This document shows positions 3,183 through 8,510 of a DNA stretch of 24,206 nucleotides, piece after piece. The notes under the pieces were generated by a model. It searched no databases, was not told the DNA's origin, and saw only the letters and a list, made by a program, of their open reading frames with translations. The position numbers and the translations under genes were made by a program. Where the stretch lies: the IMG/VR virus record IMGVR_UViG_3300020021_000421, positions 1-24,206 of that record; one strand, written 5' to 3'. Source of the stretch: a virus. Position 1 is the stretch's first letter, and each line of letters opens with the position of its first letter.

Positions 3183-4088
3183 ATGTACGACCAGTGGCTT
3201 CCGGTACCTTACGGCGGACTTGACGGCTCCAGCAGCCGCCTCCGTGAGGGTCCGCGCTTCTGGCGCGACACGCCGCGTTCCGAGCCGAGAGAGATTACGC
3301 CACCCGCGTTCGAACCCCTGAGCCGCGCTGAAGCCAAGCTCCATCTGCGCACGGGCCTCACCGATGAGGACGCGTGGTTCGACCGGACCATACCGGCCGC
3401 GCGCCGGCAGGTCGAGACCGACACCAACCGGACCTTCGTTCAGACCGTTTGGGAGATGACGTTCGACCAGTTCCCGATCGAGCGCTACATCGAGCTCCCG
3501 CGTCCGCCGCTCGTCAGCGTGGCCAGCCTGTCATCGTTCGACCTGCTGACCGGCCTCGAGACGGTCGTCGATCCATCAACGTACTACCTCGACACGTATT
3601 CGCAGCCGGGGCGCGTGATTCTGGTGCCCGGCAAGATCTGGCCGACGGGCGTCCGCTGGCAGCAGGGCGGCAAAGTGCGTTGGACGGCCGGCTACAGCGG
3701 CGTGGCGCAGGCGATCGCGTCCATCACACGCGTCGGCGCCGTCGCGACCGTGACGACCGTCGCGCCGCACGGCTACGCGAGCAATCAGCAGTTGACCGTG
3801 TTCGGCGCCGACCAGGCCGACTACAACGGCACATTTCAGGTGACCGTCACGGGTGCGGCCACGTTCACCTACGCGGTCGCCAACAACCCGGCGACGCCGG
3901 CGACTGGTGTCCTGACCGTCGCCTCACTGGGCGTCCCATCGCGCTACGTGCATGCGATCGCGCTGCTGCTCGGCCACTGGAACTTCCACCGCGAGGCGGT
4001 CACGAGCGGCGCCGCGCGCTACTCGCCGGACCTGTACCCGCTCGGCTATGACGCGTTGATCAGCGATCGGATTGTGGGGCTCGGGTAA
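3183..4088 (+). CDS. gp6-like head-tail connector protein with inserted beta domain
   Basis: A 301-residue protein of the HK97 gp6-like connector family, which forms a ring under the portal. Family signs are LSRAEAKLHLR (residues 46-56), the helical DEDAWFDRTIPAARRQVETDTNRTF region, WEMTFDQFP, IELPRPPLVSVASL, TYYLDTYSQPGRVIL, VRWTAGY (residue 171), then VHAIALLLGHWNFHREAV and a C-terminal LGYDALI. Normally the AGY strand runs straight into the VP...AI.LL..HW helix. Here about 70 extra residues (about 179-247) with PHGY, YNGTF and ATFTY motifs interrupt it, explaining the length (301 against roughly 190-230 usual). The first 45 residues are also extra. The gene leads the neck cluster, and its stop overlaps the next start (TAATG). 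Confidence 0.85.
   Translation: MYDQWLPVPYGGLDGSSSRLREGPRFWRDTPRSEPREITPPAFEPLSRAEAKLHLRTGLTDEDAWFDRTIPAARRQVETDTNRTFVQTVWEMTFDQFPIERYIELPRPPLVSVASLSSFDLLTGLETVVDPSTYYLDTYSQPGRVILVPGKIWPTGVRWQQGGKVRWTAGYSGVAQAIASITRVGAVATVTTVAPHGYASNQQLTVFGADQADYNGTFQVTVTGAATFTYAVANNPATPATGVLTVASLGVPSRYVHAIALLLGHWNFHREAVTSGAARYSPDLYPLGYDALISDRIVGLG
3717..3923 (+). repeat. PHG-type beta domain, copy A (inserted in the gp6-like connector)
   Basis: It encodes about 69 residues beginning ASITRVG and containing VATVTTVAPHGY, GADQADYNG and ATFTYAV. Copy B in the next gene shares SITRVG, VAT, TTV, PHG, YNG, VTV and ATF in the same order, about 30 of 54 positions by eye, with clear DNA similarity too. The layout resembles phage segments that automatic pipelines often name E1-FCCH-like; that link is from memory. 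Confidence 0.8.
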
Positions 4089-4666
4089 TGGGCAGCGGCC
4101 TCTCCGTCGGCGCCCTGCGCGAGCGCGTGGCCATCCTGAATAACGTGTGGCCAGCCATCACCATCAGCAGCATCACGCGCGTGGGCATCGTCGCGACCGC
4201 GACGACGGTGGGGCCACACGGGTTTCTGACAAACGACTACGTCACCATATCGGGCGCCAACCAGGTCGGCTACAACGGCCGCGTCAAGGTGACCGTCATC
4301 GACCCCGCGACGTTCTCGTACACAGTCGACGGTGCGGTCGTGACGCCGGCCACTGGCGCGCCAGCCGCGGTGTACACCAGCGACGCGGAGGGCGGCCGAC
4401 GAGCCAACTGGGTGACGCTCGACACGGTCTGGGCTGAAGTGACTGCGCTCAGCGCTCGCGAGCAGCTGCAGCTGCAGGCCATCGAGGCGAAGGCGATGTA
4501 TCAGGTCCAGATCCGGCGCCGCGTGGACGTCTCGCCGACGATGCGGCTGCTGTGGACGCCGAGCTGGCCGCCGAACAGTCCCGCGCACACACTCGAGATC
4601 GACGCGCCGTTGCCTGATGACGATCTCGCGTACATGAACCTCTCGGCAAGCGAGGTCGTCCAGTAA
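4088..4666 (+). CDS. phage head-closure (head-tail joining) protein with inserted beta domain
   Basis: A 192-residue protein of the siphovirus head-closure family (gp7/gp16-like), the plug below the connector ring. The family N-terminus (LRERVAILN, residues 10-18) and C-terminal part (WVTLDTVWAEVTALSARE, then YQVQIRRRVDVSPTMRLLW, then AYMNLSASEVV) are both present. Between them, residues about 27-97 are a second copy of the SITRVG...PHGF...YNG...ATFSYTV domain seen in the connector. The usual family length is about 105-120 residues, so the insertion accounts for the excess. The start is in a TAATG overlap with the connector and the stop in a TAATG overlap with the tail terminator, implying translational coupling of the neck genes. 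Confidence 0.82.
   Translation: MGSGLSVGALRERVAILNNVWPAITISSITRVGIVATATTVGPHGFLTNDYVTISGANQVGYNGRVKVTVIDPATFSYTVDGAVVTPATGAPAAVYTSDAEGGRRANWVTLDTVWAEVTALSAREQLQLQAIEAKAMYQVQIRRRVDVSPTMRLLWTPSWPPNSPAHTLEIDAPLPDDDLAYMNLSASEVVQ
4166..4378 (+). repeat. PHG-type beta domain, copy B (inserted in the head-closure protein)
   Basis: It encodes about 71 residues: SSITRVGIVATATTVGPHGF, ISGANQVGYNG, VTVIDPATFSYTV and an ATGAPAAVYT end. It is closest to copy A at both protein and DNA level, suggesting a fairly recent local duplication. It sits in the N-terminal part of a protein otherwise of normal family composition. Confidence 0.8.
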
Positions 4667-5544: not shown

Positions 5545-5547
5545 TTG

Positions 5548-6546
5548 ATGGCCGGCAACAAATTCGGCAGCGGCTCGGCACTCTTCTTGGTCGATGGCTA
5601 CGACTTCCTCGCCGCCAAGCTGAAGACGCTCGCGCTAAAGATCACGTCATTGACCGAGCAGACGGACGGCCTCGGGGATCTTTCCGAACTGTTCCTGCCC
5701 GTCGGCAAACAGCGGGCGACCGTCACCCAGACCGGTGCGTTCTTCGATACGACGGCCCTCAACATCCACGATGCGATGGCGACCAAGCTCGGTACGACGC
5801 CGCAGGCGACGCCGCGCATTATGTCGATCGGCATCGTCGGCAACACGATGGGCGCCGTCTGTTATGGCGTCGCCGGCGCGTTCAGCGTGGCGTACGAAGC
5901 GGCGCTCGAGCTGAGCAAGCTGACCAAGGCCAACGCGGAACACCTACTCGCGGGCCTCGTCGAGCGCGGACAGATCATCCAGCCCACGGCCGTCAAGGCG
6001 GCGAGCTGGAACACGAAGACGCTCGGGACGTCAGTGGATTCCACGTTGGATCCGTCGCAAGTGGTCATTCCGATCACCTCGGCCACGAAGGCGAATCCCT
6101 GTGTGGTGACGACGACCGTTCCACATGGATTGACGAGCGGCCAGATCATTCTGCCGTCAGGCAACACCCTCGCCGGTCCGAACATCAACGCCGAGCAGAT
6201 CGTCACCGTCCTCACGCCGACGACGTTCTCGGTCCCGGTCGACACGTCCGCGAGCACCGGTGCGGGCACGGGCGGATCGTTCGTGCGCAGCAGCACCGTC
6301 AACGGCGGCGCGGGCTACCAGCAGATCACGGCGTTCGCTGGCTTCACCGGCTTCATCGGGAAGGTCCGGCACTCCGCGGACGACACGACATACGCGGACC
6401 TGACGGTCTTCGCGAACGTGGCGGCCGGCCCGACCAACGCGCAGCGGATGACGTGCGCGGGGACGGTGAACCGGTACCTCTGCTTCGACGGGGCGGTCAC
6501 GGGCGCGGGAAGCCTGACGCTCTTCTCGATGTTCGCGCGCGGGTAA
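5548..6546 (+). CDS. long tail-tube-like protein with inserted beta domain
   Basis: A 332-residue protein; ATG 5548 is taken over the TTG three bases upstream. The N-terminal about 160 residues form a tail-tube-like core (FLVDGYDFLAAKLKTLALKITSLTEQTDGLGD, LPVGKQRATVTQTGAFFDTTA) that shares PVGKQ...FDTTA...H.AM...TTPQ.A.R with the shorter protein at 6780. The C-terminal part has a separate pattern common in phage tail proteins: GYQQITAF, KVRHSADDTTYADL and TVNRYLCFDG. Between them, residues about 177-246 are a diverged PHG-type domain (TTTVPHGL...TPTTFSVPV), breaking what is usually a GTSVD...NGGAGY link. It may be the main tail-tube subunit with surface domains, or a decorated minor variant. 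Confidence 0.75.
   Translation: MAGNKFGSGSALFLVDGYDFLAAKLKTLALKITSLTEQTDGLGDLSELFLPVGKQRATVTQTGAFFDTTALNIHDAMATKLGTTPQATPRIMSIGIVGNTMGAVCYGVAGAFSVAYEAALELSKLTKANAEHLLAGLVERGQIIQPTAVKAASWNTKTLGTSVDSTLDPSQVVIPITSATKANPCVVTTTVPHGLTSGQIILPSGNTLAGPNINAEQIVTVLTPTTFSVPVDTSASTGAGTGGSFVRSSTVNGGAGYQQITAFAGFTGFIGKVRHSADDTTYADLTVFANVAAGPTNAQRMTCAGTVNRYLCFDGAVTGAGSLTLFSMFARG
6076..6285 (+). repeat. PHG-type beta domain, copy C (inserted in the tail-tube-like protein)
   Basis: It encodes about 70 residues: TSATKANPCVV, TTTVPHGLTSGQ, NINAEQIVTVLTPTTFSVPV and a TGAGTGGSFV end. It keeps the PHG turn and the TTF strand but lacks the YNG motif of copies A and B, so it is an older or independently acquired relative. 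Confidence 0.6.
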
Positions 6547-6779: not shown

Positions 6780-7202
6780 ATGCCTGGAAAGTACGGATCA
6801 GCGAGCGCGGTCATCACGCTCGACGACCACGGCGGCACGCCGCGCATCTTCACCCCGAACGTCCTGACGATCGGCGGCCTCAAGATCACGCAGATAACCG
6901 AGGAGAATTCGCCCTTCGGCATGGCCAACGAGCAGAACACGCCCGTGGGCAAACAGAAGTTCGGCCCCGTCACGATTGCGGGCAACTACGACACGACGGC
7001 GACGACCGGCCCGCATGCGATGTTCTCCACGCTGGAGACCACGCCGCAGGACGCGACGCGGACGCTCGTCATCTCGCCGGACGGGGTGAAGAACCTCACC
7101 GTCGAGGTCTATGCAGTGGAGTACGAGCCCGTGCTGACCAACGGCAAGCTGACCGGCTACAGCGCGACGCTCATGCAGGCCGGCCTGGCGGTCTGGTCGT
7201 AA
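6780..7202 (+). CDS. short tail-tube protein (paralogue of the 5548 gene product)
   Basis: A 140-residue protein with strong upstream AGGGAGAG (6767-6774). It matches the core of the longer upstream protein: LKITQITEEN, NTPVGKQKFGPVTIAGNYDTTATTGPHAMF, TTPQDATRTLVIS and a closing GYSATLMQAGLAV strand. It lacks the extra C-terminal domain and the PHG insertion. Tube subunits of siphoviruses form stacked hexameric rings around the tape measure, and a plain compact core of this size fits that role well. The long 106-base leader before the next gene holds two hairpins. Which of the two paralogues is the abundant tube subunit cannot be told from sequence; the strong ribosome binding site favours this one. 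Confidence 0.7.
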   Translation: MPGKYGSASAVITLDDHGGTPRIFTPNVLTIGGLKITQITEENSPFGMANEQNTPVGKQKFGPVTIAGNYDTTATTGPHAMFSTLETTPQDATRTLVISPDGVKNLTVEVYAVEYEPVLTNGKLTGYSATLMQAGLAVWS

Positions 7203-7308: not shown

Positions 7309-7827
7309 ATGTCGTCACCGTTTGCCCGCGCCACCAAGACCATCGAGATTCCGTTCGACCAACCGCACGAGGTCACTGTCCAGCAGTTGAACGGCCGGCA
7401 GCTCGGGAAGGCGCAGAAAGCGTTCTTCAACGAGCTGATCGCCGACGTCCAGGTCCGTGGCGGCGCGAAGGTCCAGAAGGACATCCAAACGCTGTTCGAG
7501 AAGGACCCGGCGACCGCGAAGGGCGAGATCGAGAAGGTTAAGGACGATCCGCTCAACGGCTACGACAAGTACACGCTGCTGTACGACGGCATCAAGGCGT
7601 GGACGTATCAGGAGAGCCTCGAGCGCGTGGCCGTCGAAGAGCCGACGTCGGACGGTCGGAAGATTACGGTGATGCGCGTGCCGGCGATCGACTCGCTGAG
7701 CGACGAAGCCGTCGATTTCTTCGCCACGGAAGTCCTGAAGCTCACGAAGCCGTCGCTGTTTCTGACGCCAGAGGAGCGGGAGGCGGCACAAAAAAAGGCT
7801 GACGGCGTGCCATCGATCACTGAATAA
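7309..7827 (+). CDS. tail assembly chaperone, gpG-like (zero-frame product)
   Basis: A 172-residue protein at the position of lambda gpG, between the tail tube and tape measure genes. The N-terminus (TIEIPFDQPHEVTVQQLNGRQLGKAQKAF) has the style of siphovirus chaperones: a beta hairpin naming the substrate-like strand, then helices. The middle is highly charged and helical (VQKDIQTLFEKDP, EIEKVKDDP), and the end is LTKPSLFLTPEEREAAQKK. It is thought to coat and keep the tape measure soluble before tube polymerisation. Near its end, an A7 run (7790-7796) sits in an excellent frameshift context, and the next frame stays open into the downstream T-like region. GAGAGAGG (about 7292-7299) precedes the ATG. 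Confidence 0.72.
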   Translation: MSSPFARATKTIEIPFDQPHEVTVQQLNGRQLGKAQKAFFNELIADVQVRGGAKVQKDIQTLFEKDPATAKGEIEKVKDDPLNGYDKYTLLYDGIKAWTYQESLERVAVEEPTSDGRKITVMRVPAIDSLSDEAVDFFATEVLKLTKPSLFLTPEEREAAQKKADGVPSITE

Positions 7828-7844
7828 CGACGATGACGCGCCGT
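7778..7844 (+). promoter_or_regulatory. probable programmed frameshift site joining the G-like and T-like frames
   Basis: Three elements line up. A Shine-Dalgarno-like GGGAGG lies at 7778-7783. The slippery tract is A-AAA-AAG at 7791-7797 inside A7 (zero-frame codons CAA AAA AAG GCT). Four bases further on, ACGGCG (7802-7807) can pair with CGCCGT (7839-7844). A -1 slip gives one Gly codon then TGA (7800-7802). A -2 or +1 slip enters a frame open to 8131, adding 111 codons and making a protein of about 273-274 residues. Lambda-like phages usually use -1; Mu-type phages use -2. Confidence 0.7.
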
Positions 7845-8131
7845 ATCCGACCACGCTCTGGTTGGCCGTCCTCATGGATGCCTTCCAGGGCCGGTTCCTG
7901 ACGGAGATCGTGCAGGAGCTCGAACGGCTACCGACCGGGATGCTCGACGAGGTCCTCGAGGCTAAGTCCTATCGCTATGCGAAGGAACTCGTGGACGCGG
8001 CGGACACCGACGAAGCACGGAAGCGATTGCCGAAGACGCCGCTCTTTCTGCTCGTCGACGAGATTGATGGTGAGCTTGCAGAAGAAGAGATCGCCGCGCG
8101 AATAAAACGAGAGGGGATGACACCTGGCTGA
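7796..8131 (+). CDS. tail assembly chaperone, gpT-like C-terminal extension reached by frameshift
   Basis: This frame is +1 (equivalently -2) relative to the G-like gene and is open from 7673 to the TGA at 8129-8131. No good independent start exists: the only candidates, TTG 7862 and ATG 7874, lack a ribosome binding site, while sensible protein sequence (DDAPYPTTLWLAVLMDAFQG) already runs upstream of them. It then continues with helical, charged sequence (FLTEIVQELERLPTGMLDEVLEAKSYRYAKELVDAADTDEARKRLPKTP). In siphoviruses the T domain is made only as a G-T fusion at a low ratio and recruits tube subunits to the tape measure complex. If translated alone from 7862 it would be 89 residues. The next gene starts two bases after its stop. 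Confidence 0.68.
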   Translation, partial: RLTACHRSLNNDDDAPYPTTLWLAVLMDAFQGRFLTEIVQELERLPTGMLDEVLEAKSYRYAKELVDAADTDEARKRLPKTPLFLLVDEIDGELAEEEIAARIKREGMTPG

Positions 8132-8132
8132 C

Positions 8133-8510
8133 ATGTTCACGGCTTCCATCGACGCCTCCGAGGCCATCAGCATGCTCGATCGCCTCGCGCAGTCCGCGGA
8201 CTTCGTGACGCGCGAGGTCGCGCTCGACACGGCCAAGCGGATCGTCGCCGAGGCTGAACGGCGAGTCGCGCGGGCGACCGGGCAGACCGAGTCCGGCATC
8301 CACTGGGAAATGACGCGCGACGGCATGGGCTACGTCGTCCTCGGCTATCGCGCCCACGTGCAGGCACCCGTCGACAAGTATCTGGAATTCGGCACGCGCT
8401 ACATGTACGCGGAGCCGTTCTTCTTCGCGTCGGCAGAACTCGAGGAAGGTCCGCACCTGCGCCGCCTGATCGATCGGATGCAGGCGTGGCTCGACGAGGT
8501 CGGCCGGTAA
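8133..8510 (+). CDS. HK97 gp10-like neck/tail completion protein
   Basis: A 125-residue protein with the family signs of the HK97 gp10-like group: a helical N-terminus (SEAISMLDRLAQSADFVTREVALDTAKRIVAEAERRVARATGQTESGIHWEM), a central VVLGYRAHVQAPVDKYLEFGT and a C-terminal AEPFFFASAELEE helix. The 'vEfGT...a.PFl.pA' pair is the most diagnostic part. The family normally acts at the neck, and its gene normally lies between head-closure and tail-terminator genes. Here it sits between the tail chaperones and the tape measure. It could be the true neck protein relocated, or a paralogue used elsewhere. The stop abuts the tape measure ATG directly. Confidence 0.7.
   Translation: MFTASIDASEAISMLDRLAQSADFVTREVALDTAKRIVAEAERRVARATGQTESGIHWEMTRDGMGYVVLGYRAHVQAPVDKYLEFGTRYMYAEPFFFASAELEEGPHLRRLIDRMQAWLDEVGR

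Follow-up and report, generated by a model that had tools for sequence, protein, structure and literature searches.

In this uncultured phage two overlapping reading frames, G and T, follow the gene of the major tail protein and precede that of the tape measure, as expected of a G/G-T pair, and we propose, with a probability of roughly two in three, that they constitute a single tail-chaperone gene joined by a programmed -2 frameshift that makes a G-T fusion. Slippage itself, its size of two bases, its rate and the roles of the proteins are what we infer from comparing the window, i.e. the whole stretch of 24,206 bases that was analysed, with related loci. Eight further loci display the same -2/+1 relation between the two frames, and the arrangement is therefore real and repeated in the family rather than the freak of a single contig. 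The comparisons also indicate that the size of the slip has probably changed more than once in this chaperone family, by as little as one DNA base. Amongst tail-chaperone frameshifts -1 is the rule and -2 was long regarded as peculiar to Mu (PMC4378225); -1, -2 and +1 shifts have all been reported amongst tailed phages (PMC5009743), and both sources cite Xu, Hendrix and Duda 2004 for the lambda-type G/G-T frameshift (PMC5009743, PMC4378225).

Slip site, flanking signals and reading frames

Across the window, whose GC content is 65%, a single A/T run reaches six or more bases: an A7 (7790-7796) followed by a G, where the codons of the G frame are CAA AAA AAG (Table 1). The zero frame proceeds to a TAA (7825-7827), the -1 frame reads GGC TGA (7797-7802) and would give a product of 164 residues, and the -2/+1 frame stays open from 7796 to 8128 (stop at 8129-8131), overlaps G by 62 nt and would give 274 residues following a -2 or 273 following a +1 slip. 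Third-position GC is 0.88 in the G frame ahead of the site, and across 7797-7861 it is 0.73 in the T frame versus 0.55 in the G frame. A previous inspection of the letters alone (the sequence-only reading) had drawn attention to GGGAGG, the A tract, the G stop, the -1 TGA and the open 111-codon -2/+1 frame, all of which are present in the sequence, and its product lengths (172 residues without a slip, 164 with -1 and 273-274 with -2/+1) are correct.

Table 1. Positions in the window of the proposed frameshift signal and of the surrounding tail genes
Feature	Position	Strand	Basis
Candidate major tail protein, immediately ahead of G	6780..7202	+	PHROG 10528, E 3.7e-4
G-like tail assembly chaperone, 172 aa when read without a slip	7309..7827	+	AlphaFold model, fold matches
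GGGAGG, resembling a Shine-Dalgarno sequence, 8 nt ahead of the AAA slip codon	7778..7783	+	Sequence
Putative slippery site CAA AAA AAG (A7)	7789..7797	+	Only A/T run of at least six in the window; re-pairing table
T-like domain, -2/+1 frame, 111 codons, without its own start at the conserved beginning	7796..8131	+	Homology, model
TGA that would end a -1 reading after one codon, probably left over from the ancestral G stop	7800..7802	+	Alignment with L065, L025, L018 and L063; stop distances
Predicted downstream RNA hairpin, 15 bp, 4 nt past the AAG codon	7802..7844	+	Folding; counterparts in L065 and the -2 clade
HK97-gp10-like / Neck1 protein, encoded after T and ahead of the tape measure gene	8133..8510	+	PHROG 5, E 6.5e-9; PF04883 below cut-off
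Tape measure protein, 1187 aa	8511..12074	+	PHROG 1272, E 4.5e-4; size, place

The 6-bp stem described in that first inspection is present, but its extent had been understated, as it forms the base of a 15-bp hairpin (pairs 7802-7809/7837-7844, 7811-7815/7831-7835 and 7817-7818/7829-7830). The predicted stability is about -23 kcal/mol (z -3.6 to -3.8) and none of 200 shuffled sequences is as stable. Folds over the 60 nt downstream of the site yield a mean z of -3.1 in the nine -2/+1 loci, seven of which fall below -2 (the value is modest in L060 and weak in L063), and a mean z of -0.9 in the 27 loci with a -1 relation, five of which fall below -2. Six aligned members of the -2 clade form a 17-pair hairpin, 90% paired, with three compensatory pairs, a number that is reached in 7 of 500 shuffles; in the window and in this clade alike the helix begins 7 nt past the AAA slip codon. 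RNAalifold, applied to 20 sequences of both classes together, returned no common fold, possibly on account of a shift in hairpin register between the classes; the hairpins were instead assessed by separate folds and by the six-sequence clade alignment. Automatic spacer lengths are unreliable for the -1 loci and were excluded as evidence of a class difference.

Upstream of the site GGGAGG ends 7 nt before A_AAA_AAG, and a second Shine-Dalgarno-like sequence, GAGGAG, is located at 7771-7776. The duplex with the anti-Shine-Dalgarno sequence is slightly stronger than in synonymous shuffles of the window (z -0.7) and is stronger in all nine -2/+1 loci, with a mean z of only -0.9; the sequence is in part imposed by Glu-Glu codons. 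It is compatible with stimulation of the slip and counts as weak evidence because of the small departure from the synonymous shuffles.

With the heptamer, the Shine-Dalgarno-like sequence 7 nt before it and the hairpin 4 nt after it all in place, the earlier comparison to a dnaX signal, whose Shine-Dalgarno sequence lies about 10 nt upstream, holds. The site further shares with Escherichia coli dnaX a -1 stop after one codon (PMC5009743), but the long product of the window requires -2/+1, whereas the -1 product of dnaX is a functional short form. The arterivirus nsp2 site likewise gives -2 from a site at which -1 meets a stop at once (PMC5009743); arteriviruses are, however, eukaryotic RNA viruses that need a trans-acting protein, and the likeness is an analogy only.

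The tail genes and their relatives

Neither G nor T has a significant match in Pfam or PHROG. Amongst solved structures, an AlphaFold model of G based on 33 sequences (pLDDT 92.8) matches the HK97 tail assembly chaperone 2ob9 best (Z 6.6 at 3.4 A, 88 residues aligned; Z 4.0 for the next match), and its top viral match in BFVD is the tail assembly chaperone of a Gordonia phage (E 8.6e-4), which lends moderate support to a tail assembly chaperone fold. The model of T is helical (pLDDT 92.2), its first helix beginning at residue 2, and a structure search with it gave no meaningful match.

The order major tail protein, G, T and tape measure, the position of the slip site near the end of G, the predicted G and G-T products and the fold match to the HK97 chaperone are all of the lambda type. 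The window departs from lambda and most phages, which use -1, in its -2/+1 relation, and from the lambda type in the HK97-gp10-like gene that separates T from the tape measure gene. A gene intervening ahead of the tape measure gene has precedents in HK97, SPP1 and KL1 (PMC3483164). In at least three of the relatives (L001-L003) a similar-looking gene lies downstream of T, at the place of the HK97-gp10-like gene in the window, an order that is uncommon but precedented.

Scans of IMG/VR identified 35 distinct other loci that possess both G and T, i.e. 36 with the window, and in all 36 the similarity of T begins at the slip site. The frames are in a -1 relation in 27 loci, mostly with A_AAA_AAC or A_AAA_AAA as the site and with the G stop mostly a few codons on; L001 (3567-3577) is the sole member with G_GGA_AAC rather than an A run as its -1 site. 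The relation is -2/+1 in nine loci, namely the window, L002, L003, L008, L011, L020, L034, L060 and L063, in which G continues for 8-9 codons past the site. The eight other contigs of this class come from several metagenomes, and L010 resembles the class, but its contig is cut off. The proposal of the sequence-only reading that a G-T tail chaperone pair is joined by recoding other than -1 is thus strengthened, both by the eight contigs that share the relation and by the homology of T from the slip site onwards. An exact search of IMG/VR for the slip region of the window found no second copy, so the length of its A7 rests on one contig; genome contigs and the phage collection yielded no relatives, and no cultured relative was found.

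Direction and size of the slip

Whether the codon in the P site could re-pair after moving was assessed at each -2/+1 locus. Two bases back, re-pairing is full in all nine, while in the +1 direction it is full in seven, poor in L003 (AAA C) and impossible in L008 (CGA G). Codon choice points the same way: in the background 11% of Gln is encoded by CAA, CAG being the usual Gln codon, and 18% of Lys by AAA, yet the site reads CAA AAA in eight of the nine loci and CAA is kept in all eight that have an A tract. The last A of CAA matters for a -2 and not for a +1 slip, although it may be inherited from -1 ancestors. The junction would have the same length in the -2 product as in the -1 relatives (QKK/RLT versus QKN/RLT, with the slash marking the slip) and would be one residue shorter after +1. 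In the window alone -2 and +1 re-pairing are equally perfect, so that -2 is favoured rather than proven, on the strength of the nine against seven re-pairing loci together with the retention of CAA.

L008 (2936-2965) reads GCG CGA GAG with no A tract, and a tRNA-Arg that pairs with its CGA could also pair with the CGC two bases back, which makes it a possible homopolymer-free -2 site; by itself it is modest evidence, because 4.8% of codons allow a -2 match by chance.

The alternative of a +1 slip, in which tRNA-Lys would move from AAA at 7792-7794 to AAA at 7793-7795 and continue with AGG into a 273-residue fusion, is unlikely. Its re-pairing in the window is perfect, a move from AAA to AAG could occur in six other loci of the class, some tailed phages use +1, and a review has the +1 frame reached mostly by +1 shifting (PMC5009743). 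It would, however, leave L003 and L008 without proper re-pairing and have no need of the third base of CAA, which is kept all the same (though perhaps as a legacy of -1 ancestors), and backward shifts are the more typical setting for a 3' hairpin.

Under the favoured -2 slip, most ribosomes would read through CAA AAA AAG and end at the TAA as the 172-residue gpG. A minority would be held up by the hairpin and slip two bases backwards, with tRNA-Lys on AAA (possibly also on AAG) re-pairing on the A7 and reading resuming with AGG CTG ACG, to give the 274-residue G-T fusion (...AAQKK/RLTACHR...). The predicted junction peptide is AAQKKRLTACHR... if the slip is -2 and AAQKRLTACHR if it is +1. By analogy with lambda, gpG may coat the tape measure and the T part may recruit the tail tube protein. 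Of the -1 heptamers tested in E. coli, A_AAA_AAG shifts most readily (PMC5009743), and a -1 slip would therefore be expected to compete.

Access to the T frame of a tail chaperone by -2 is known from Mu (PMC5009743, PMC4378225), albeit Mu is a myophage and the likeness covers the frame relation only. The earlier remark that -2 is known mainly from Mu-like phages is too narrow, for a -2 G/T shift on CCCUUUUUUU, with Sanger-confirmed sequence, is reported in the Escherichia siphophage 9g (PMC4276943). On that account a -2 siphophage chaperone is not new: 9g resembles the window in being a siphophage with a homopolymer of seven at the site and a -2 relation, and differs in that the run consists of U rather than A.

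History of the slip site

The window falls in the G tree beside L018, L023, L024 and L064 (support 99/97), all of which are -1, and in the T tree with L065 (100/96), likewise a -1 locus. A single clade of all nine -2/+1 loci is rejected (p-AU 0.0035), whereas one of the eight without the window is not (p-AU 0.225), and the supported branches force at least two changes of class in the joint tree, at least three in the G tree and at least four in the T tree. The G and T of L019 and L060 are placed differently in the two trees (the G of L019 lies beside the -2 locus L002 and its T amongst -1 loci); this conflict makes mosaicism likely and the exact number of switches uncertain, and it suggests recombination at or near the frameshift site.

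At the slip site L065 reads CAAAAAAACGGCTGAC versus CAAAAAAAGGCTGAC in the window, which has one base fewer, and the lineage would have arisen from -1 ancestors by the net loss of one base. In an alignment with L065, L025, L018 and L063, the TGA at 7800 falls where G stops in the -1 relatives. Of the nine -2/+1 loci just two, the window and L063, retain this stop in the -1 frame, which in the others is open for 26 to 231 codons. The alignment and the retention in two of nine loci mark the TGA as a likely remnant of the ancestral G stop, which leaves unsupported the earlier idea that a -1 slip deliberately makes a short form; such a slip would give a product that ends almost like the ancestral gpG.

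The same single-base difference invites the objection that the assembly lacks one base at the site and that the phage is really -1 like its nearest kin. All near relatives are indeed -1 for G (L018, L023, L024, L064) and for T (L065), L065 and the window are exactly one base apart, and with the base restored the TGA would become an ordinary G stop. Against this, eight other contigs share the -2/+1 relation, and the old stop survives in the -1 frame of L063 too, so that switches of class do happen; furthermore, the main genes of the window are whole, with third-position GC bias throughout. An indel in the tract, from sequencing or from assembly, would leave the same picture and keeps a small probability, given that the closest relatives differ by exactly this one base.

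Slippage of the RNA polymerase on the A7 homopolymer, by which an mRNA one A short would yield G-T through normal reading, is very improbable: relatives of the -2/+1 class have A5 only or, in L008, no run, yet CAA AAA or a codon able to re-pair at -2 persists in them, and the hairpin just downstream would be unneeded. Transcriptional slippage in Thermus dnaX and other cases acts on runs of about nine (PMC5009743); a run of about nine A/T kept by selection was looked for here, and there is A7 in the window and A5 or none in loci that share its frame relation. Equally hard to credit is a separate T protein made from in-frame starts (TTG 7862, ATG 7874) or by re-initiation after the G stop, since both codons lie 22-26 codons inside the conserved T sequence, conserved residues upstream of them include the R.L motif, the whole first helix of the model and some of its second, no Shine-Dalgarno-like sequence was seen before either, and the T frame alone is translated there in the -1 relatives; the earlier view that the T frame lacks a usable start is in keeping with this.

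Bacterial -2 programmed frameshifting has few known cases (Mu and 9g), and here one position of one gene is a -1 site in 27 loci and a -2/+1 site in nine, with well-supported tree branches forcing a minimum of two to four changes. These loci provide a natural series for the determinants of slip size, i.e. spacer, A-run length, A-site codon and hairpin, and the family illustrates how a frameshift site may survive an indel; gene finders that allow only for -1 would miss G-T in such phages. A limited search of the open-access literature found no description of a chaperone family that alternates between -1 and -2 at the same position with a one-base difference. A further-reaching and tentative reading, which we consider doubtful, is that slips of different size replace one another freely: at an unchanged position, with a hairpin directly behind it, most members would shift by -1 and the rest by -2, one-base indels would toggle between the two, and L008 would slip -2 on CGCGA without a homopolymer. 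Newly switched phages, in which the old G stop is left in the -1 frame, would then make long G, short G and G-T from one heptamer.

Upstream of the tail genes, the connector proteins encoded at 3183-4088 (residues 175-242) and 4088-4666 (residues 23-90) have a common inserted domain of about 68 residues, 56% identical, that belongs to phrog_9998. Its carriers are the neighbouring head-tail adaptor and head closure proteins, and a weak PHG-type stretch in the protein encoded at 5545-6546 may be a remote copy of the insert (E 0.05).
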